37,225 nt of DNA from contig JAJZAT010000030.1 of NCBI GenBank assembly GCA_021799275.1, positions 1 through 37,225 on the forward strand, written 5' to 3'. The notes beneath the pieces are model-generated. The model worked only from the letters and a program-made list of their open reading frames with translations. It did not search any database and was not told the DNA's origin. A program made the translations under genes and the position numbers. Below are positions 3,884 to 35,557 of the stretch, piece by piece (position 1 is the stretch's first letter; every line of letters starts with the position of its first letter). The stretch comes from Bacillota bacterium (GTDB lineage Bacteria; Bacillota; Sulfobacillia; JAJZYS01; JAJYTV01).

Positions 3884-5156
3884 GACGCGGCTCCTGTTCA
3901 GGCACATCGACGTGCCCGGCATCGCGGGGATCGACGTCTACGAGCGCGAAGGCGGCTATCGGTCGCTGCGCAAGGCGGTCACGGAGATGTCCCCCGACGA
4001 CGTCGTGCAGGAGGTCATGACCTCGAACCTCCGGGGCAGGGGCGGGGCCGGTTTCCCCACGGGCCGCAAGTGGAGCTTCCTGCCGAAGGACGGCCGCACG
4101 CGCTATCTCGTCTGCAACGGCGACGAGTCTGAGCCCGGTACCTGCAAGGACCAGGAGATCATCTACCGCCACCCGCATCTGCTGATCGAGGGGGTGCTCA
4201 CGAGCGCCTACGCGATCGGGGCCGAGCAGGCCTTCATTTACCTGCGCGGCGAGTTCAAGGACGGCTACCTCACGTTGCGGCGCGCCATCGCCGAGGCCAG
4301 GGCCAAGGGCTACCTCGGCGATGACGTCCTCGGCAGCGGGCGCAGGCTCGACATCAGGCTCTACCTCGGGGCGGGCGCCTACATCTGCGGCGAGGAGACC
4401 GCGCAGCTCGAGAGCCTCGAGGGGAGGCGCGGCATGCCGCGCCTCAAGCCGCCCTTCCCGGCCACGGCCGGCCTCTACGGCATGCCGACGGTCGTCAACA
4501 ACGTGGAGACCCTTGCGGCGGTCGTGCCGATCGTCGAGATGGGGGGGACGGAGTACGCCAGGCTCGGCACCAAGGAGAGCGCCGGCACCAAGCTCTTCTC
4601 GGTCTCCGGCAACGTCCGCAGGCCCGGCAACTACGAAGTGGAGCTCGGCAAGGTGACCATGGGCGAGCTCCTCCATGACCTCGCCGGCGGGCCGCCCGAA
4701 GGGAGGAGCTTCAAGGCGGTCATCCCCGGCGGCTCGTCGGTGCCGTTCCTGCCGCCCGACAAGTTCGACACCCCCCTCGATTACGAGTCGATGCGCGCGG
4801 CCGGCACCATGCTCGGCTCCGGCGGCGTGATCGTGCTCGACGACCAGGCCTCCATCGTCGACGCCTCCCTGCGCCTCATGGAATTCTACCGCCACGAATC
4901 CTGCGGCAAGTGCACCCCGTGTCGCGAAGGCACCATGTGGCTCGAGCAGGCCCTCAGGCGGATCGTCGCCGGCGAGGGCCGCCAGGGCGACCTGAAGACG
5001 ATCGAGGGCCTGATCGCCCACATCGACGGCCAGACCTTCTGCCCCTTGGGCGACGCCGCGATCGCCGCGCTTGGCTCGGCCCTGCGCCTCTTCCGCGGCG
5101 AGTTCGAGGAACGCATCGCGACGCCCGAACGCCAGCTCGAGGAGGTGGCGCAGTGA
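3876..5156 (+). CDS. nuoF: NADH-quinone oxidoreductase subunit F (NADH- and FMN-binding)
   Basis: This 426-residue subunit binds NADH and FMN and carries [4Fe-4S] cluster N3. The glycine-rich NADH/FMN region RGRGGAGFPTGRKW begins near residue 52, and CNGDESEPGTCKD follows near residue 87. The N3 ligands are Cys343, Cys346 and Cys349 (ESCGKCTPCREGT) and Cys389 (TFCPLGDAA). The ATG lies inside the end of nuoE, and the stop overlaps the nuoG GTG. Length and all cofactor motifs are normal. Confidence 0.97.
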   Translation: MPETRLLFRHIDVPGIAGIDVYEREGGYRSLRKAVTEMSPDDVVQEVMTSNLRGRGGAGFPTGRKWSFLPKDGRTRYLVCNGDESEPGTCKDQEIIYRHPHLLIEGVLTSAYAIGAEQAFIYLRGEFKDGYLTLRRAIAEARAKGYLGDDVLGSGRRLDIRLYLGAGAYICGEETAQLESLEGRRGMPRLKPPFPATAGLYGMPTVVNNVETLAAVVPIVEMGGTEYARLGTKESAGTKLFSVSGNVRRPGNYEVELGKVTMGELLHDLAGGPPEGRSFKAVIPGGSSVPFLPPDKFDTPLDYESMRAAGTMLGSGGVIVLDDQASIVDASLRLMEFYRHESCGKCTPCREGTMWLEQALRRIVAGEGRQGDLKTIEGLIAHIDGQTFCPLGDAAIAALGSALRLFRGEFEERIATPERQLEEVAQ

Positions 5157-7324
5157 TCTCCCTGACGATCGACGGCCGGGAGGTTCAGGTGGAGCCTGGC
5201 ACCCTGATCCTGAACGCGGCCCGGCAAGCGGGGATAGAAATCCCGGTCTTCTGCTACCATCCGCGCCTCGCCCCGGTCGGCGCCTGCCGCATGTGCCTCG
5301 TGCGCGTCGACAAGATGCCGAAGCTCGTGCCGGCCTGCACCACGCCGGTCGCCGAGGGCATGGTCGTGCGCACCGACACGGACGACGTGCTGCAGTCCCA
5401 CGAAGGCGTCATGGACTTCCTGCTGAGCACGCATCCCCTGGACTGCCCGATCTGCGACGCGGGCGGCGAGTGCGAACTGCAGGACAACGCCATGCGCTAC
5501 GGCGCGAACCAGTCCCGCTTCGCCGAGCCGAAGCGTCATCTCAAGAAGGCAACGGAACTCGGCCCGATGGTGGAGCTCGACCAGGAGCGCTGCATCCTCT
5601 GCCTGCGCTGCATCCGCTTCATGCGCGAGGAGGTGGGCGACCCCGCGCTCACCCTGCACGAACGCGGCAACGACACGGTGGTCGACGTCGCCGAGGGGCG
5701 CACGTTCGACTCGATCTTCGCCGGCAACACGATCCAGATCTGCCCGGTCGGGGCCCTCACGTCGCGCCCCTACCGCTTCAAGGCCCGGCCCTGGGACCTC
5801 GACATGGTCGATTCGATCTGCCCGCACTGCCCCGTCGGCTGTCACATGTCCCTCTCGCTGCGCCACGGCGACGTCCTCAGGATCCAATCGCGCGACAGCG
5901 ACGACGTGAACTGGGCCTGGCTCTGCGACCGCGGCCGCTACGGCCACGGCTTCGTGCACCAGGGCCCGCGCCTGACGCGGCCGCTGGTGCGCCGGGGCGG
6001 GCAGCTGGGACCCGCCGACTGGCCGGAGGCCATCGATGCCCTCAGGAAAGGTCTCGCGGGGACGGTCGGCGCCCTCGGAGGCGCCCGCATCTCGCTCGAG
6101 GCGCAGTATCTGCTGCGCCGCTGGCTGCGCGAGGGGGTCGGCACGGACCATGTCGACCACCGCGTCCAGCCGCTGACGGCGGCGATCCCCCCGGGCCAGG
6201 TCGGGCGCATCGACGACATCGACCAGGCGGACCTCATCCTCGCACTGGAGGTCGATCTGCTGCAGGAGGCGCCGGTACTCGCCATCCGCCTACGCCACTC
6301 CGTCGAGGCCGGCAAGAGGCTCGTCGGCATCTCGAGGCGCAAGGGCATGCTCGACATGCCGCACGAGGAGATCGAGACCCCGGACGTCGCGAGGGCCCTG
6401 CTCGAGCTCGTGCGGGGCGGAGGCGCGCTCGGCGAGACCTTCCTGCACGCCGGGAAGGTGCTGATCCTCTGGAACGGGCGCGGGCGCGAGATCGGCGAGG
6501 CGATCGCCGAAGCGCACCGCCGGCGCCCCGGCGACACCTACGCGATGGTTGTCGGCGGACTCGGCAACTCGTACGGCGCCGAGGCGGCCGGTCTTGTGCC
6601 GGGGCCGTCGGGCCTCGACACCCGCGGCATGCTGGAGGCGGCCGCCCAGGGCGAGCTCGACGGCCTGCTCTTGGTGGCACAGGACCGGCGCGACTTCCCG
6701 GACCAGGAACTGCTGCGGGCGGCCCTCAGCCGCGTCCCCTTCCTCGCCGTGGCGGGGTTTTTGCCGAGCGACCTCACGGTAGAGGCCGACGTCGTGCTGC
6801 CGCTCGCGGCCTGGGTCGAGGCGGACGGGCACTTCGTCAACATGGAAGGCCGCGCCCAGCGCTACTTCGCCGGCGCCTCGCGCCCCGGCGAAGTCTGGGA
6901 GGACTGGCGGCTCTTCGCCCATCTCCTCGACTACGACTGGGACTACGGTCATGTCCTCGAGGCGGTCCGGCGCGATCTGCCGGACCTCTTCGCCGCCGAC
7001 CGCCGCACCGGCGGTCCGCCGCCGCACGGCGGCTACGTGGAGCCGCCCGGGGTCATCGTCGGGGCCAGCATCTTCCACAAGGGCGTCCTGCCGGATCCCC
7101 TCGTCCAGGCGATCGTGCCGCCGCCAAGGGTCGTTCTGGCCCCCGACCGCGCCGAGGCCCTGGACCTGAGGGAGGGACACATCCTCGATCTCGAACCCGG
7201 CAAGGCGGAGGTGGGCATCTCGCCCGACTTGCCCGCGGGAAGCGTCATGTGGCGAATCGGCCTCGAAGGGGCCGGCAAGGCGGTCGACCGGCTGGCCGCT
7301 GTCGCCGGCCCGTGCGGAAGGTGA
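5153..7324 (+). CDS. nuoG: NADH-quinone oxidoreductase subunit G
   Basis: This large iron-sulfur subunit has 723 residues from GTG 5153, which overlaps the nuoF stop. The N-terminal ferredoxin domain has [2Fe-2S] ligands Cys34, Cys45, Cys48 and Cys62. The His-Cys3 cluster uses His94, Cys98, Cys101 and Cys107. A second [4Fe-4S] uses Cys147, Cys150, Cys153 and Cys197. A fourth motif, Cys223-x2-Cys226-x3-Cys230-x27-Cys258, has exactly the spacing of the off-pathway cluster N7 retained only by some bacteria. The rest is a molybdopterin-oxidoreductase-like domain that is diverged and presumably carries no molybdenum. An upstream in-frame extension inside nuoF is not part of the gene. Confidence 0.96.
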   Translation: MISLTIDGREVQVEPGTLILNAARQAGIEIPVFCYHPRLAPVGACRMCLVRVDKMPKLVPACTTPVAEGMVVRTDTDDVLQSHEGVMDFLLSTHPLDCPICDAGGECELQDNAMRYGANQSRFAEPKRHLKKATELGPMVELDQERCILCLRCIRFMREEVGDPALTLHERGNDTVVDVAEGRTFDSIFAGNTIQICPVGALTSRPYRFKARPWDLDMVDSICPHCPVGCHMSLSLRHGDVLRIQSRDSDDVNWAWLCDRGRYGHGFVHQGPRLTRPLVRRGGQLGPADWPEAIDALRKGLAGTVGALGGARISLEAQYLLRRWLREGVGTDHVDHRVQPLTAAIPPGQVGRIDDIDQADLILALEVDLLQEAPVLAIRLRHSVEAGKRLVGISRRKGMLDMPHEEIETPDVARALLELVRGGGALGETFLHAGKVLILWNGRGREIGEAIAEAHRRRPGDTYAMVVGGLGNSYGAEAAGLVPGPSGLDTRGMLEAAAQGELDGLLLVAQDRRDFPDQELLRAALSRVPFLAVAGFLPSDLTVEADVVLPLAAWVEADGHFVNMEGRAQRYFAGASRPGEVWEDWRLFAHLLDYDWDYGHVLEAVRRDLPDLFAADRRTGGPPPHGGYVEPPGVIVGASIFHKGVLPDPLVQAIVPPPRVVLAPDRAEALDLREGHILDLEPGKAEVGISPDLPAGSVMWRIGLEGAGKAVDRLAAVAGPCGR

Positions 7325-16598: not shown

Positions 16599-19007
16599 TT
16601 GGCATCCCTTACCTCTATCCCGGCAAAGCACCGGATCTGCGAGGCGAGATATTTGGCCGAGTGGGGAGCGACGGGCTTCACGGAGCCCGCCGAGTCCTCC
16701 GCCGACTGGGGCTGGCTCTCGGTCGGCCTGCCGCGGCGCATAGCGCGAGGCGCGGTACTGCTTCTTCTGGCTGGAGCCCTTCCGGCCACGCATCTGCCAC
16801 CCGACTGGCTGCTTCCTGCGGCCGCCGTGGTGCTCTTCGTGGCCGGCCTCGACGTCGGTCCCGTGCCGAGTCTGCTATTCGCCGTCGTCGCGGGCGTGGC
16901 CGCCCTGCTGGTGCACCGCCCGCAGAGCCCGAGCCTGGCCCTCGCGCTGGTCCTCGTGCCGCTGCTGGCGGCGGTCGCCGGCAGCGCCGTCGGCTACCGG
17001 GTGCGGCGGGTGCGGCAGGCGGCCATGGGGGCCGCCCGGCGCGCACGGCTGCTCTCGGAGGCCCTGTTGCGCCTGCCGCGTCTCGAAACCGCCGACGATG
17101 TTTTCCGCGAACTGCCGCACCTTCTGCAGGAGATCCTTGGCTTCAGCCATGCCGACGTCCTGGTGCCGGCCCAGGACGGCCAGCATCTCCAGGTCCACAC
17201 CACTTTGGGCTGGACGCCTCCGTCGGGCGTGCTGGTACCGCTGCAGTCGATCACAGGCAGAGCTCTGCGCACCAGGCGCTCTCAGCACGTGCCGAACACG
17301 CAGGCGGACCCGGAGTTTGTCCAAGGCGTCGGCATCACGGCCACCCACAGCGAACTCGCCTTGCCGATCCTGTCCGGTGACCAGGCGGTCGCGGTGCTGA
17401 ACGTCGAGCGTGGCAATCCTGGCGCGTTCCTGCCGGACGAGGTGGAGACGCTGGAGGCCCTGGTCCGCGCCGGTGGCGATGCCGTCTGGCGCCTCGGCCG
17501 CCTGAGCGCGACGCAGGAGACGACGCGCCTGCAGAACTTCCTCCTGGACTTCTCCCGCCAGATCACGCAGCTGCCCACACCGCAAGGCGTGGCCCAGCGT
17601 GCCCTGCAGCTCCTGCTGCCCTTCGCCGCCGCCGACGTCGGATCGCTGTGGCTGCCCGGCGGCGAGGCGCCCCATCTTCTAGCCCGCCAGAGCCTTGGCG
17701 ACTTCGAGTCGCCGGCGGCTGCGTCGCCCTTGGAAACCAGCTTCCGCGGGCAGATTCCGCGTCAGGCGTTCTGGGTGGCGTCCGCCGTGACATCGCCGTA
17801 CACCACAGCGCGGCAGCTGGACCTCGGCCTGCAGTCGTTCGCCCTCCTGCCCCTGATGGAGCCCGACGGCCGACCGCAAGCCGCGCTTGAGTTTCTCTTC
17901 TACCGCACGCCCGCGGGTTTCGGCGTCGGTGAGCGCCAGGCCCTGGAGCGCGCAGCCGACCGGCTGCGCATCGCATTGCAGGGCATCCTCGCAACGTCGC
18001 GGCTCACGGAGCTCCTCGCGAGTCTTCACGCGCTCGGCGCGATCGGGGACATGCAGGCCCTGTGCGACGAAGCACTTGCCGAGGCGATCCGGTTGATCCC
18101 GGCTGCCGACGCGGCCACCCTCTGGCTCGCCAATGGGACCCACCTCGACCTGAGGGCAGTCGCGGGCTACGACGACCCCTCGGCGCAGGGACACTGGCGC
18201 CTGCAGGAGGTCGAAGGAGCCATCGCCGTCTATGGCGGAGAGCGGAGCGCCTTCCTGAACGGCTTGCCACGCATCGTGACGCGACCCGAATCGGCGACGC
18301 AGGAAGGCCAGCCGCACGGGGCGGCCGCCAGCATCTTCGTGCCGCTCGTGCTGCACGGGGACCTCATCGGCCTCCTCAGCATCGACAACCTCACCGAGCC
18401 CGACGCGTTCTCGCAGGAGGCCCTCTCGCTCGCGGGGATGTTCGGTCTCCAGCTGGCTGTGCTGCTGGCACAAGGCAGGCACCTCAGCGCCTTGCGCATC
18501 GCAGCGAGAACCGATACTCTGACCGACCTCGGTAACCGCCGCGCCTTCGAGGAGCGGATGGTCTCCGCCTGGTCGGAGGCCGTGCGGTACCGCGAGCCCC
18601 TGGCGCTCGTGATCATGGACCTGCAGGGTTTCAAGGCGATCAACGACCAGTTCGGGCACCTGAGCGGGGACGAGGCCCTTACGGCAGTCGCGCGAGTTCT
18701 CGACGGTGTGCGGCGCGAGGGCGACACCGTCTTCCGCTGGGGCGGCGACGAATTCGCCATCCTCCTGACCCACGCGGACCAGGGGCAGGCTCTACAGGCC
18801 GCGAGGCGCTACCTGGACGCCGTGCGCCAGGGCCCTGTGCTTGTGCGACAGGGCCGCGAAGTCTACGTCGGGGCAAGGGTCGGTGTGGCCTCGGCACCGG
18901 AGGACGCCGACTCGATCGAAGGTCTCGTGCGAGCGGCCGACGAACGAGTGATCATGGCGAAGCGCCTGGGACAGAGTCTCTGGGCCGGCGACCCGCCCCG
19001 CAGCTAG
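16599..19007 (+). CDS. Three-GAF diguanylate cyclase with N-terminal membrane region
   Basis: Up to 802 residues. Hydrophobic helices lie at about residues 50-130, followed by three GAF-like domains (about 150-300, 320-470 and 480-625) and a C-terminal GGDEF domain. The cyclase domain starts with TDTLTDLGNRR, includes MDLQGFKAINDQFGHLSGDE, and has an intact GGDEF at 715-719. RxxD (R-E-G-D, 706-709) lies five residues before it, which is the inhibitory product-binding site. It should make cyclic di-GMP in response to signals read by the GAF domains. No EAL domain is present. The start is uncertain: TTG 16599 lacks a clear ribosome binding site, and TTG 16653 is an alternative. Confidence 0.88.
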   Translation: MASLTSIPAKHRICEARYLAEWGATGFTEPAESSADWGWLSVGLPRRIARGAVLLLLAGALPATHLPPDWLLPAAAVVLFVAGLDVGPVPSLLFAVVAGVAALLVHRPQSPSLALALVLVPLLAAVAGSAVGYRVRRVRQAAMGAARRARLLSEALLRLPRLETADDVFRELPHLLQEILGFSHADVLVPAQDGQHLQVHTTLGWTPPSGVLVPLQSITGRALRTRRSQHVPNTQADPEFVQGVGITATHSELALPILSGDQAVAVLNVERGNPGAFLPDEVETLEALVRAGGDAVWRLGRLSATQETTRLQNFLLDFSRQITQLPTPQGVAQRALQLLLPFAAADVGSLWLPGGEAPHLLARQSLGDFESPAAASPLETSFRGQIPRQAFWVASAVTSPYTTARQLDLGLQSFALLPLMEPDGRPQAALEFLFYRTPAGFGVGERQALERAADRLRIALQGILATSRLTELLASLHALGAIGDMQALCDEALAEAIRLIPAADAATLWLANGTHLDLRAVAGYDDPSAQGHWRLQEVEGAIAVYGGERSAFLNGLPRIVTRPESATQEGQPHGAAASIFVPLVLHGDLIGLLSIDNLTEPDAFSQEALSLAGMFGLQLAVLLAQGRHLSALRIAARTDTLTDLGNRRAFEERMVSAWSEAVRYREPLALVIMDLQGFKAINDQFGHLSGDEALTAVARVLDGVRREGDTVFRWGGDEFAILLTHADQGQALQAARRYLDAVRQGPVLVRQGREVYVGARVGVASAPEDADSIEGLVRAADERVIMAKRLGQSLWAGDPPRS

Positions 19008-28345: not shown

Positions 28346-29644
28346 TCAGCCCAGGAGGGGCAAAGGCAGTCCCGCGGTCTGCCAGAGCAGCACGACATTG
28401 AGCAGAAGCACGAATCCCGTGGCGGCTACGGCTACCGCCGTCGTGAGGCGCGAGTTGACGAGCTCGCCCATCAGTTCCTTGCGCGCGGTGAACTTGACCA
28501 CGGCGATCATCGGCAGCGGGAGCACGAGACTCAAGATGACCTGGCTGATCACGAGGGTCATCGTCGGGTCCACGCCGAGCGCCACGACGATGACCGTCGG
28601 CACCATCGTGACCAGCCTGCGGACCCAGACGGGGATGCGGAACCCAACGAACCCCTGCATGATCACTTGACCGGCCATCGTGCCGACGGTCGAGCTCGAA
28701 AGTCCGGACGCCAGGAGCGAGACCAGAAAGACGAACGCGGCGCCATCACCGAGGAGCGGCATCAAGGTGCGATAGGCGCCGGTGATGTCCGCGACACCCG
28801 AGTGGCCGTGGTGGAAGACCGCGGCCGACATGTAAAGCATCGCCATGTTGATGAGCCCCGCGAGGGACATCGCGATCACCACGTCGAGCAGTTCGAAGTG
28901 GTGCACGCGGCGCTTCTCACGGGCGGTGCGGGCCGGCACGCGATCCTGCATCAGGCCCGAGTGCAGGTACACGGCATGCGGCATGATGGTCGCCCCGATG
29001 ATGCCCACGGTCAGGAGGACGCTCTTCGGTCCCTGCAGCCAGGGCACCACGGCATGGATGGCCACCTGCCCCCACGCCGGGTGCGAGAACCCCGTCTCCA
29101 GCAGGTAGCTCAGCGCGATCACCGCGACGAGAACGCCGATCGCGGCCTCCAAGGCGCGAAAGCCGTAGCGGTCCAGCGACAGCAGGAGGTACGTGAGGAC
29201 GCCGGTGACCAGCGTCGCCACGATCATCGGGATGCCCAGCAGCAGATTGAGCGCCAGGGTGGCCCCCAGGAACTCCGCGAGGTCCGTGGCCATGGCCGCC
29301 ACCTCGCTCACGACCCACATGCCGACGGACACCGGGCGGCGGAACTCCCGCCGGCAGAGCTCGGGCAAGTTGCGCCCCGTCGCAATGCCGAGCTTTGCGG
29401 ATAGATTCTGGAACAGCATCGCCATGACATTGGCGAGCAGCACGACCCACAGCAGGTGATATCCAAACTCGGCGCCGCTTTGAATATTGGTGGCGTAGTT
29501 GCCAGGATCGATATAGGCGACCGACGCGATGAACGCGGGGCCAACAAACGGCAGCAGGGCCTTGATCCCGCGCCTGCGTCCGTCGAGTGCCTGCCGCGCC
29601 GCGATTTGGACGCTGCTCTGCGGCACCGGCGCCAGATCACGCAT
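28346..29644 (-). CDS. mntH: NRAMP family Mn2+/Fe2+ transporter
   Basis: This 432-residue, roughly eleven-helix transporter imports manganese or iron with protons. The metal site is intact: Asp46 and Asn49 in the DPGNYATN motif of helix 1, and Met221 in the A-x-x-M-P-H motif (GATIMPHA) of helix 6. The ATG has GGAGG 9 nt upstream. The upstream region contains a palindrome with DtxR-family geometry and two hairpins, described separately. A hairpin lies downstream. Length is normal for the family. Confidence 0.94.
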   Translation of the reverse strand: MRDLAPVPQSSVQIAARQALDGRRRGIKALLPFVGPAFIASVAYIDPGNYATNIQSGAEFGYHLLWVVLLANVMAMLFQNLSAKLGIATGRNLPELCRREFRRPVSVGMWVVSEVAAMATDLAEFLGATLALNLLLGIPMIVATLVTGVLTYLLLSLDRYGFRALEAAIGVLVAVIALSYLLETGFSHPAWGQVAIHAVVPWLQGPKSVLLTVGIIGATIMPHAVYLHSGLMQDRVPARTAREKRRVHHFELLDVVIAMSLAGLINMAMLYMSAAVFHHGHSGVADITGAYRTLMPLLGDGAAFVFLVSLLASGLSSSTVGTMAGQVIMQGFVGFRIPVWVRRLVTMVPTVIVVALGVDPTMTLVISQVILSLVLPLPMIAVVKFTARKELMGELVNSRLTTAVAVAATGFVLLLNVVLLWQTAGLPLPLLG

Positions 29645-32002: not shown

Positions 32003-32623
32003 TCAGCGCTGTTCGGCCGCGATGTCCCGCAGGGCGTCGCGCAGGGCCTCGTATGGGTGGGCTCCGACGATCATGTACTTGCCGTCGACGATGAACGTCG
32101 GAACACCGGTGATGCCGATCTCGCGCGCCCGCTCGAGCGAGCGCTCCACGCGTTCGCGGTAGTCCGGCCGCTCGAGGGACGCCATCGCCACCTCGGGATC
32201 GAGTCCCGCCCTCGCGGCCATCTGCCGCAGCACCTCGTCGTCGGCCAGGTTTAGGCCCTCGACGAAGTTGGCTCTGAAGAGCTCCCGGTGCAGGGCTTCC
32301 AGCTGTCCTTCGTCGCGCGCGTACTCCGAAAGGATGTGCGCCTTGCGCGTGTTGGTCAGGAGCTCAGGCGAGGCGAAGGGCAGCCCGAGCTCGCCGGCTC
32401 GCGTGCGAAGCCGTTCCTGCATCCTTTCGACCTGCTCCCGTGGCCTCCCGAAGTACTCCGCGACCGCAATGCCTTCCTCCGGGGTATCCTCGTGCAACTC
32501 GAAGGGCTGCCAGGTGACGTCCAACGTAAGTCCAGGTTCCTGGTTCAGCTTGTCGACGAGACCCTCGCCGATGTAGCAGAACGGTCAAACGTAATCCGAG
32601 AATATCTCCACCTGCAATGCCAT
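32003..32623 (-). CDS. DsbA/FrnE-like thiol oxidoreductase, candidate selenoprotein (TGA read as Sec13)
   Basis: Read from ATG 32623, the frame gives M-A-L-Q-V-E-I-F-S-D-Y-V, then TGA at 32587-32585, then P-F-C-Y-I-G-E-G-L and onward without interruption to a TGA at 32003. FrnE/DsbA-family proteins have S-D-x-x-C-P-x-C here, so the TGA exactly replaces the first active-site cysteine, giving U13-P-F-C16. The protein would have 206 residues. The cis-proline loop GVPTF lies at 173-177, and the helical insert typical of FrnE separates the two. The start has GAGGTGATC, a long match to the 16S rRNA 3' end, 5 nt upstream. A SECIS-like hairpin follows the TGA. Without recoding, the gene would start after the active site (TTG near 32524) and lack catalytic residues. 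A sequencing error (TGC to TGA) or a pseudogene are the alternatives. Confidence 0.85.
32543..32582 (-). promoter_or_regulatory. Bacterial SECIS-like hairpin downstream of the in-frame TGA
   Basis: Starting 2 nt after the TGA, the minus-strand RNA folds as GUUC, U, GCU, ACA, UCGGCGAG, loop GGU (32563-32561), then CUCGUCGA, CA, AGC, U, GAAC. That is 15 base pairs (one G-U), a U-U mismatch and a small internal loop in 40 nt. The apical loop begins 22 nt after the TGA, inside the 16-37 nt window usual for bacterial SECIS elements, and has the G-U pair seen in the loop of the E. coli fdhF element. SelB would bind it to deliver Sec-tRNA. Confidence 0.78.
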
Positions 32624-32925
32624 GCAGGATCACCTCATCTTCCTTGTTGGTGATTGTTCCGACCAGATCGTATCGACCTTCACAGTCTTAGTATATCCGC
32701 AGTCCGTTGGGGCCGCCGCATTGTCCTGACAATCTTCGCGTCGGCTCCCTGCCTGTGGCGCTCTCTCCCAATGGCACATGGCTGCCCGTCCGGGTACCTG
32801 GCCTGTGTCACGCTCCCTCCTTGGCGTGAGCCCATGGTGCCTCCATGTGTATACCTGAGTCTTCAGGTTATCTTAAGAGTTTTGTCCGTAATCTTTAGGC
32901 GAGTCACTGCGAAGGAGGGTCCCCT
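32624..32925. other. Divergent regulatory region with two palindromes
   Basis: This 302-bp region holds no convincing gene and separates the selenoprotein candidate from the surface-protein gene. It is less GC-rich than its surroundings. ATTGTC-CT-GACAAT (32720-32733) is a perfect 14-bp palindrome, and ACCTGA-GTCT-TCAGGT (32853-32868) is a 6-bp inverted repeat about 58 bp before the plus-strand start. A candidate -10 for the minus gene, TATACT, lies at 32695-32690, but no matching -35 was found. Confidence 0.45.
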
Positions 32926-34473
32926 GTGGAGTTGCGTAAGCTTGGTCTGGTAGCCGCCCTGGTAGCAGCTGCCGGTTTCGTGGCCCCTGTAGCGGTCGGC
33001 GCCCAGACCGCGACTGTCCCAGACTTTATGAATCTCGGCTTCTCGATGGTCGCCGCCTCGACCAACCTCGCGGCAGGTGCCGGTGGGTCGCTCCACTACG
33101 GATCCATCACCGTTCAGATACCGCAAGGAACCTTCACAGATCCCGTCACGTTCGAGCTCTTGCAAGGTCCGGTGTCGAACTTCCAGTCGGCCGCGCCCTC
33201 TGGCGAGACCGTGGTGACCGACTTCGCTCTGCGCGCGGTGGACACCAAGACACAACAGCCCCTCGCGAGCTTCCTCAAGCCAGTGATGGTCACGATCACG
33301 CAGAATGACATCAGTTCCGCCAGCCAGTACGACAACGTCACCCAGACAGGACAGATCGTGGCCAATCCCGTCGCCGCCATGGTCAGCGGCGACGTCCTCA
33401 CCCACCCCATCACCGCCGACGTGGTCGGCTGGGTCGTGCTGAGTCCGAGCAGTTCGGTGCCTGCCGTGCCCGATTTCACGCAACACGGTTTCCCGACCGT
33501 CGTCGCCTCGACTGACCTGGCAGCTGGTGCGGCTGGATCGGTGCATTACGGCGCGGTCTCAATCGGCATCCCGCAGGGCGCGTTCAGCCAGGCGGTCAAG
33601 GTTCAGCTGCTCCAAGGTCCGGTCATGAACTTCCAGTCCGCTGCACCCGCCGGTCAAACCGTGGTGACGGACTTCGCGCTGCGCGTGATCGACCCGAGCA
33701 CGGGTCAACTCATCGGTACGTTCCTCAAGCCGGTGACTGCCACCCTCACCCAGAGTGACATTGGCAGCACCAGCATGTACGACAACATCACGCCAAGCGG
33801 GCAGATCATGATGAACCCCATGCCCGCGGCCATCCATGGCGACGTCCTCACCCACCCCATCGCCGCTGCCACGGTTGGATGGGCGGTGCTCAGCCCGACG
33901 ACTTCGGTCCCGGCGGTGCCCGACTTCATGCAGCACGCCTTCCCCAACCTTGTTGCCTCCGTCAGCCTTGCTCCAAGTGCCGGCGGAACGGTGCACTACG
34001 GCGCGGTCTCGGTCAAGATCCCGCAAGGGGCGTTCACGCAGGCGGTGAAGTTCGAGTTGCTGCAAGGCTCGGACGCAACCTTCCAGGCGAGCGCCCCCGC
34101 CGGTGAGACGGTGGTATCGAACTTCGCTCTGAGGGCGGTCGACACCGCCACCGGGCAGCTGATCGGAACCTTCTCCAAGCCCGTGACGGTCACCATCAGC
34201 CAGAACGGGATCAACTCCGCGAGCACCTACGACAACGTCACCACAGCCGGGCAGATCATGCCGAACCCAATCCCTGCCAAGATCTCCGGCGATGTGCTGA
34301 CGCATCCCATTCCTGCCGCGATGGTCGGCTGGGTCGTCCTGAGCCGCGCCGCCACGGTGCCTGGCGCCACATCGCCAACCACCGGCATTCCCATCCTGCC
34401 GCTGGTGGGATCCGGCGCTCTGTTGATCGCCGCTGGCGCCCTGCTGGTCCGGTATGCGCGAGCTCACGCGTAG
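32926..34473 (+). CDS. Surface protein with three 150-residue repeats and sortase-type C-terminus
   Basis: 515 residues. A signal peptide (about residues 1-26, ending VGA) is followed by three repeats of exactly 150 residues starting at 31, 181 and 331, each opening V-P-D-F and containing H-Y-G-(A/S)-(V/I)-(S/T)-V-x-I-P-Q-G-(A/T)-F. They faintly resemble ZU5-like beta domains, but I cannot assign a family. The C-terminus has SPTTG (483-487), a hydrophobic segment and the basic tail RYARAHA, the layout of a cell-wall sorting signal with a variant of LPxTG. GTG 32926 has AAGGAGG 7 nt upstream. The sortase gene overlaps its end by 20 nt, so this is its probable substrate. Confidence 0.82.
   Translation: MELRKLGLVAALVAAAGFVAPVAVGAQTATVPDFMNLGFSMVAASTNLAAGAGGSLHYGSITVQIPQGTFTDPVTFELLQGPVSNFQSAAPSGETVVTDFALRAVDTKTQQPLASFLKPVMVTITQNDISSASQYDNVTQTGQIVANPVAAMVSGDVLTHPITADVVGWVVLSPSSSVPAVPDFTQHGFPTVVASTDLAAGAAGSVHYGAVSIGIPQGAFSQAVKVQLLQGPVMNFQSAAPAGQTVVTDFALRVIDPSTGQLIGTFLKPVTATLTQSDIGSTSMYDNITPSGQIMMNPMPAAIHGDVLTHPIAAATVGWAVLSPTTSVPAVPDFMQHAFPNLVASVSLAPSAGGTVHYGAVSVKIPQGAFTQAVKFELLQGSDATFQASAPAGETVVSNFALRAVDTATGQLIGTFSKPVTVTISQNGINSASTYDNVTTAGQIMPNPIPAKISGDVLTHPIPAAMVGWVVLSRAATVPGATSPTTGIPILPLVGSGALLIAAGALLVRYARAHA
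33016..34365 (+). repeat. Three tandem 450-bp coding repeats
   Basis: The V-P-D-F codons start at 33016, 33466 and 33916, so each unit is exactly 450 bp and the register holds to the end of the third unit at about 34365. The DNA has diverged (many synonymous and some amino acid changes), so the duplications are not recent. The second and third units are more alike than either is to the first in the opening segment. Confidence 0.85.
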
Positions 34474-35557
34474 GACAAGCTGGCTGGGGGCTGCGCTGAT
34501 CACCATCGGTGCAGCCCTTGTGGCCTTGCCGCTGCTCATGCCTTACTACTCGAACTGGCGCCAGGCGCAACTGGCGCAGGCTGCTGCGCCCTGGCATGCA
34601 GGCAGGCATCCGCAGGCAGCCAGGGCTGTAGCGGTCACGGCGGCGCCTCTCCCCGCGCGAGCCCAACCCGGCACAGGGCAGGTGGCGGCCTACCTGCGCA
34701 TCCCCAAGATCGACGTATCCGCCACCGTCCTGCAGGGTACGTCCGACGCGCTGCTGGCATCAGCGCCAGGGCACGAGCCGCAGAGTGTCATGCCCGGCAC
34801 GCCCGGAACCTCCGTCATCGTGGCGCACAACCTCACGTTCTTCCGCCACATCGACGCGCTCAGGCCGGGCGACACCGTCGTCGCCGGCACCGCCCAAGGT
34901 GTCTTCACGTTCAAGGTGACGCGATCCCTCGTGGTGCCCGCGAACTCGTCGCTGCCGAACACCACCTGGCCGAGCCTGGACCTCGTGGCCTGCTACCCGC
35001 TGAACGCGCTCTACTACACCTCCGACCGCTATGTGGTCGAGACGGCGCTCGTCAGCGCATCCCCCGCACCCGCGGGCAGCGTCGCGGGGCTCCGTCCCGG
35101 CACACCGCAGTTCCTGGCCACCCTGCCCCCCAAGCTCGCGTCGCAGCCCCTCTGGCTCTCCGACACGGGCTACGAGGTCGGGAGTGCCACGTTCACGGGC
35201 GGGCCCAGTCTGCGGCTCACGGCCAGCGGCGCCAGCTGGAGCCTGGTGGCGCAGAGCATCCGCATGTTCGCGGCGACCGTCAGGGCTCTGCGCGTAGCCG
35301 CACCCTCTCCCCTCGCGGGGTTTGGACCGGATCCGGCCATGCAGGGTCTCGCGGGCGGCGGCCCCTGGGTCGTGGTGCCGCAGGCGCCGCTCGACGTGTC
35401 GATCGAGCTCGGCGCTTCCGGCCAGCCACTCGCCGTGACCGTGGAGACGCCCCTGGCGCGCGTCGCAAGCCCAGGTGGGGCGACGAAGGCTCCCTTCGCC
35501 GTCACGCTCCTCGTGCGCGGGGGCGTCCTCTACCTGCGCAGCGCCGGCACAGCCTGA
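34454..35557 (+). CDS. Sortase (class D/E-like) with C-terminal extension
   Basis: This 367-residue protein has an N-terminal membrane helix (about residues 9-31) and a sortase domain at about 75-200. The catalytic triad is His125 (VIVAHN), Cys180 (DLVACYPL) and Arg192 (TSDRYVV), in the normal order. YLRIPKIDVSATVLQGTS opens the domain as in class D/E enzymes. It should cut the sorting signal and link the overlapping upstream protein to the cell wall or another acceptor. About 165 residues after the domain are unusual in length and have no recognised fold. The start overlaps the upstream gene; its ribosome binding site is weak, so coupling is likely. Confidence 0.87.
   Translation: MRELTRRTSWLGAALITIGAALVALPLLMPYYSNWRQAQLAQAAAPWHAGRHPQAARAVAVTAAPLPARAQPGTGQVAAYLRIPKIDVSATVLQGTSDALLASAPGHEPQSVMPGTPGTSVIVAHNLTFFRHIDALRPGDTVVAGTAQGVFTFKVTRSLVVPANSSLPNTTWPSLDLVACYPLNALYYTSDRYVVETALVSASPAPAGSVAGLRPGTPQFLATLPPKLASQPLWLSDTGYEVGSATFTGGPSLRLTASGASWSLVAQSIRMFAATVRALRVAAPSPLAGFGPDPAMQGLAGGGPWVVVPQAPLDVSIELGASGQPLAVTVETPLARVASPGGATKAPFAVTLLVRGGVLYLRSAGTA

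Follow-up and report, generated by a model that had tools for sequence, protein, structure and literature searches.

The window, a stretch of 37,225 nucleotides from contig JAJZAT010000030.1 of a Bacillota bacterium (assembly GCA_021799275.1), carries on its reverse strand, at positions 32003-32623, a gene that we call frnE-U and that is predicted from its translation, its DSBA match and its fold to encode a selenocysteine (Sec)-containing FrnE/DsbA-like protein of 206 residues. The reading frame starts with the ATG at 32623, ends at 32003 with a TGA of its own (32005-32003), and is interrupted once, by an in-frame TGA at 32587-32585. The translation begins with MALQVEIFSDYV, reaches the stop at codon 13, continues with PFCYIG and closes with AAEQR before the terminator. 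Translation thus confirmed that this TGA is the only internal stop of the frame, as the first-pass annotation had stated, and the ribosome binding site that it had placed before the ATG is there as well: GAGGTG (32631-32636, reverse strand) stands 7 bases upstream, and two relatives have the same upstream bases. The predicted Sec codon (32585-32587, reverse strand) occupies position 1 of the motif U-P-F-C, and a TGC at 32576-32578 on the same strand encodes the resolving Cys16, the sole Cys of the protein. Ordinary gene calling was expected to leave a 173-residue remnant devoid of the active site, and the mechanical list of open reading frames indeed contains at this place only a TTG-initiated frame of that length (32003-32524, reverse strand). 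The locus is therefore a clear example of how standard annotation would lose the catalytic residue of an enzyme.

When the TGA is read through, the Pfam DSBA domain (PF01323) covers residues 4-198 of 206 with an E-value of 3e-42, and the TGVP segment aligns with Deinococcus FrnE, in agreement with the earlier claim that the remainder of the protein is intact and retains its cis-Pro loop. An AlphaFold2 model, built from an 18-row alignment with Sec entered as Cys, has a pLDDT of 92.3 and a pTM of 0.88. In this model residue 13 follows a strand (residues 3-9) and directly precedes helix 1 (residues 14-27), the order found in thioredoxin folds. Deinococcus FrnE entries and Streptomyces SCO1869 make up the six best-matching solved structures, with TM-scores of 0.89-0.91 by query length, and the protein has the DsbA-like domain of FrnE, i.e., a thioredoxin fold with a helical insert and a cis-Pro. 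The CP(W/F)C motif of FrnE is present as UPFC, Sec replacing the first Cys. The C-terminal CXXXXC motif was not found in the frnE-U protein; though present in many FrnE proteins, this motif is no defining feature of FrnE, since it is also missing from the FrnE proteins of D. maricopensis and S. roseofulvus (PMC8945050). Cys16 being the only Cys, Sec13 would form a redox pair with it. Visual inspection of the N-terminus shows no evident signal peptide, which agrees with FrnE being a cytoplasmic enzyme (PMC8945050). The only other PF01323 match in the source genome is a distant protein of 213 residues on contig C28, which has no CxxC near its N-terminus. None of the NCBIfam models matches the frnE-U protein above its cut-off, and frnE-U could seed a model of that type.

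The 173-residue frame from TTG 32524 is the longest uninterrupted one here, and one could suppose that it specifies the real, redox-dead product and that the codons upstream are a mere leader. We consider this very improbable: such a protein would have neither strand 1 of the fold nor its CxxC, residues 1-12, with their SDYV, are conserved as coding sequence in relatives, and the ribosome binding site precedes ATG 32623.

The conservation of the interrupted frame is extensive. Among the source genome and 60 relatives, 12 genomes carry strong frnE-U homologues, in which codon 13 is TGA in 11 cases and TGC in one, the latter in a 3.6-Mb genome assembled as a single contig (G035). A sample of 398 genomes from the phylum yielded six further TGA forms, which are 34-39% identical and belong to five other families, along with Cys forms. 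Altogether, TGA is found at codon 13 of 20 loci from 17 distinct genomes. The alignment of Cys-containing homologues at residue 13, which had been proposed as a check, places Cys at this position in 83 other loci; the U of UPFC thus takes the place of the first Cys in a FrnE-type active site (CPFC), as initially suggested. With TGA at one and the same position in 17 distinct genomes and Cys there in 83 other homologues, the internal TGA is far beyond what chance would produce. The relatives with TGA range from 96% down to 34% protein identity across several families, with coding conserved on both sides of the TGA. This conservation shows that selection has kept the Sec form in the family of the source genome and in other families of the phylum.

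Immediately 3' of the UGA lies a region with the character of a bacterial SECIS element (32540-32584, reverse strand), the 45 bases of which fold with -18.0 kcal/mol (z -2.72). Comparative folding delimits within it an apical stem-loop, TCGGCGAG-GGT-CTCGTCGA (32553-32571, reverse strand), the loop of which starts at base 22 after the UGA; in the RNA this hairpin, TCGGCGAG-GGU-CTCGTCGA, has a GGU loop on an 8-bp stem, and 21 nt separate the loop from the UGA. PMC13188914 gives as rules for bSECIS elements a loop of 3-9 nt, a stem of 4-16 bp, a spacing from the UGA of 16-37 nt, a G in the first two loop positions and a minimum free energy of at most -7.5 kcal/mol, and the frnE-U hairpin agrees with every one of these rules. 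Rfam returned no match within the window at the gathering threshold, and the element was therefore judged by comparative folding. Across 16 Sec genes, a 7-bp apical core is paired in 98.2% of cells, the pair of columns 19 and 27 is G-C in ten genes, A-U in four and C-G in two, and the covariation score of the apical stem was reached by none of 500 shuffles. This last count is supportive and not to be taken as a probability, because the register and the set (Sec genes only, excluding G030, which has no hairpin) were chosen after the folds had been seen and because the rows are related; an earlier count of pairs that took in the weak lower stem as well as the Cys orthologue gave no covariation excess.

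The putative Sec insertion signal and the constraint on the protein act on the same bases, so that part of the hairpin's conservation reflects the peptide IGEGLVD. Three further comparisons are independent of covariation. In genes of the family, the paired and conserved codons Gly19, Leu22 and Val23 are all frozen at their third positions (3 of 3) and the unpaired loop codon Gly21 varies between GGT, GGG and GGA; elsewhere the third position is frozen in only 3 of 34 comparable codons. The two closest Cys orthologues (in G035 and G186) have a near-identical peptide but use CTG GTG, which breaks the stem. In the same register, 6.7 of 7 pairs form in Sec genes versus 3.6 of 7 in Cys homologues, most of which also differ in peptide at that stretch. 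One distant TGA homologue at 37% identity (G030, locus L027, 1501-2052) has no hairpin in the shared register; SelB is present in its genome. G030 apart, the anatomy and the comparative evidence suggest that this SECIS-like hairpin would act as the bacterial SECIS element of frnE-U.

A lone in-frame stop in a draft assembly may also mark a pseudogene or a sequencing error, i.e., a nonsense mutation or a wrong base call in what had been a Cys enzyme. This explanation is even less probable than a truncated product. It would require the same codon to have been hit in 17 genomes assembled separately, one of them (G260) into a single contig, and the coding sequence downstream of the TGA is fully conserved, whereas a disabled gene would hold neither 63-96% identity within the family nor a frozen hairpin. 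The seemingly stop-broken gene is very probably a genuine selenoprotein gene.

The source genome is a draft of 3.14 Mb in 61 contigs and is 97.5% complete, and all four of selA, selB, selC and selD, on the presence of which the first-pass annotation had made its reading depend, were found in it. The tRNA-Sec scores 68.7 bits (cut-off 47) and is called by ARAGORN as tRNA-SeC with the anticodon TCA (UCA in the RNA); SelA is encoded with a score of 522.9 bits and SelB with a score above its family cut-off. SelD is represented by two genes of the source genome (G000), on contigs C59 and C45 (L013 and L014), each of which carries, at the known Sec position GG(U)GCK, an in-frame TGA followed by a hairpin, so that at least two other genes appear to use the Sec code. 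One of the two selD genes lies directly after selA. Judged on its gene content, the source cell should be able to read UGA as Sec. SelB is encoded in 17 of 17 genomes with Sec-FrnE and in one of six sampled genomes with Cys-FrnE, that one being G035, and although single gene absences carry little weight because many of these genomes are drafts, the pattern is nevertheless uniform. In G008, a 95% complete genome of the source genome's family, neither FrnE-U nor SelB was found. That the frame continues beyond the UGA could also reflect genome-wide reading of UGA as Trp, Gly or Cys or a near-cognate read-through leak, but this is no more probable than a pseudogene or error, as UGA also serves as an ordinary stop (six of nine genes checked, frnE-U included, end with it), the residue aligns with a catalytic Cys and not with Trp or Gly, and the genome encodes tRNA-Sec and SelA, SelB and SelD.

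The machinery, the conserved TGA, the covarying SECIS-like hairpin and the strict co-occurrence with SelB together favor the reading as a Sec enzyme with which the analysis began. We estimate at about 0.96 the probability that the locus encodes a cytoplasmic Sec-containing thiol-disulfide oxidoreductase of the FrnE type, with Sec inserted at codon 13. From the anatomy of the locus and its conservation, SelB with Sec-tRNA(Sec) would dock on the hairpin 3' of the UGA and insert Sec at codon 13. Sec13 would be the attacking residue of U13-P-F-C16, located where helix 1 of the thioredoxin fold begins and facing the cis-Pro of TGVP. The chemistry of the family suggests attack on a substrate disulfide by Sec13, or oxidation of Sec13 itself, and then resolution with Cys16 as a selenenylsulfide. 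Since the Deinococcus-type C-terminal CXXXXC is absent, regeneration would need another partner, which may be, for example, thioredoxin/thioredoxin reductase.

The presumed match in subfamily between frnE-U and previously published Sec-containing DsbA-like proteins is based on COG2761, the FrnE group. Sec-containing DsbA-like proteins with a UxxC motif are reported under COG2761 from the Sargasso Sea (9 sequences; PMC1088965), from Anaeromyxobacter, Desulfovibrio and Desulfotomaculum, including Desulfotomaculum reducens (PMC1794560), and from the GOS ocean metagenomes ("DsbA 1", 63 sequences; PMC2398784), and are listed in a review and catalogue of 2026 (PMC13188914). This kind (COG2761/PF01323, "DsbA-like form 1") resembles frnE-U in its DSBA domain, in having Sec first in UxxC and in having a bSECIS after the UGA. 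The earlier statement that Sec-containing DsbA-type proteins exist is thus borne out by a published UxxC family, whereas the novelty that it implied has to be rated lower, the family being already known. Publication of such proteins since 2005 limits what is new here, and frnE-U is, on good support, a newly found and lineage-conserved case of a known kind. The passages of these reports that were consulted do not name its lineage, and in papers combining FrnE with selenocysteine or selenoprotein no title or abstract concerns a Sec-FrnE family.

The best solved relative is Deinococcus radiodurans FrnE (DR_0659; PDB 5CNW and others), which matches over the full length at 1.4e-29 and shares with frnE-U the fold (TM 0.89-0.91), a CPWC aligned to UPFC and a predicted cytoplasmic location. 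It differs in having Cys instead of Sec, a chain of 260 residues and a C-terminal CXXXXC at 239-244 (PMC8945050). The Deinococcus enzyme acts as a disulfide isomerase and reductase, and its C-terminal CXXXXC is thought to aid regeneration (PMC8945050). The second solved relative by sequence is Streptomyces coelicolor SCO1869 (PDB 3GL5; 1.1e-21, TM 0.89), which is 32% identical to frnE-U in the fold match. Sec-containing proteins of the DsbA superfamily also include the Rcas_1661/DsbG-like (seleno)lipoprotein family (NF041057), and a DsbG-like selenoprotein is described from Symbiobacterium (PMC1794560); membership of frnE-U in NF041057 was rejected, the score being 40.6 bits against a cut-off of 190 with only the C-terminal part aligned.

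In a tree of 39 rows, at least four changes are required to account for the Sec and Cys labels, and the starred branches force only one; for this reason the tree demonstrates neither a single origin of Sec nor several. One half of the tree holds the Sec rows and five Cys rows; the other consists of a well-supported clade of Cys rows only, mostly of Bacillales. A more far-reaching scenario, which we advance tentatively and regard as rather unlikely, is that Sec-FrnE is ancestral and actively maintained in a distinct, phylum-wide FrnE clade, that the Cys forms of that clade reflect repeated Sec-to-Cys replacement upon loss of the Sec trait or of the need for it, and that the Sec form carries out, without a C-terminal regenerating motif, a reduction to which the Cys form is poorly suited. 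With this locus, the Sec DsbA-like family gains members in an uncultured lineage (labelled Clostridia/Bacillota) in which the SECIS-like hairpin is well conserved and covaries, and the availability of Sec and Cys orthologues at ~53% identity offers direct material for testing the benefit of Sec in a FrnE enzyme.

The neighboring genes do not point to a functional link with frnE-U, and synteny with relatives is only partial. Ordinary neighbors in the window are genes for a NuoG-like subunit (4910-7324, forward strand), a GAF-GGDEF diguanylate cyclase (16599-19007, forward strand) and an Nramp metal transporter (28346-29644, reverse strand). A gene at 32926-34473 (forward strand) encodes a secreted-looking protein of 515 residues, which contains three diverged repeats, each ~150 residues long, and ends in a hydrophobic tail, and it overlaps the start of a sortase gene (34454-35557, forward strand; PF04203, 1.1e-20); the two products are possibly a sortase and its substrate.
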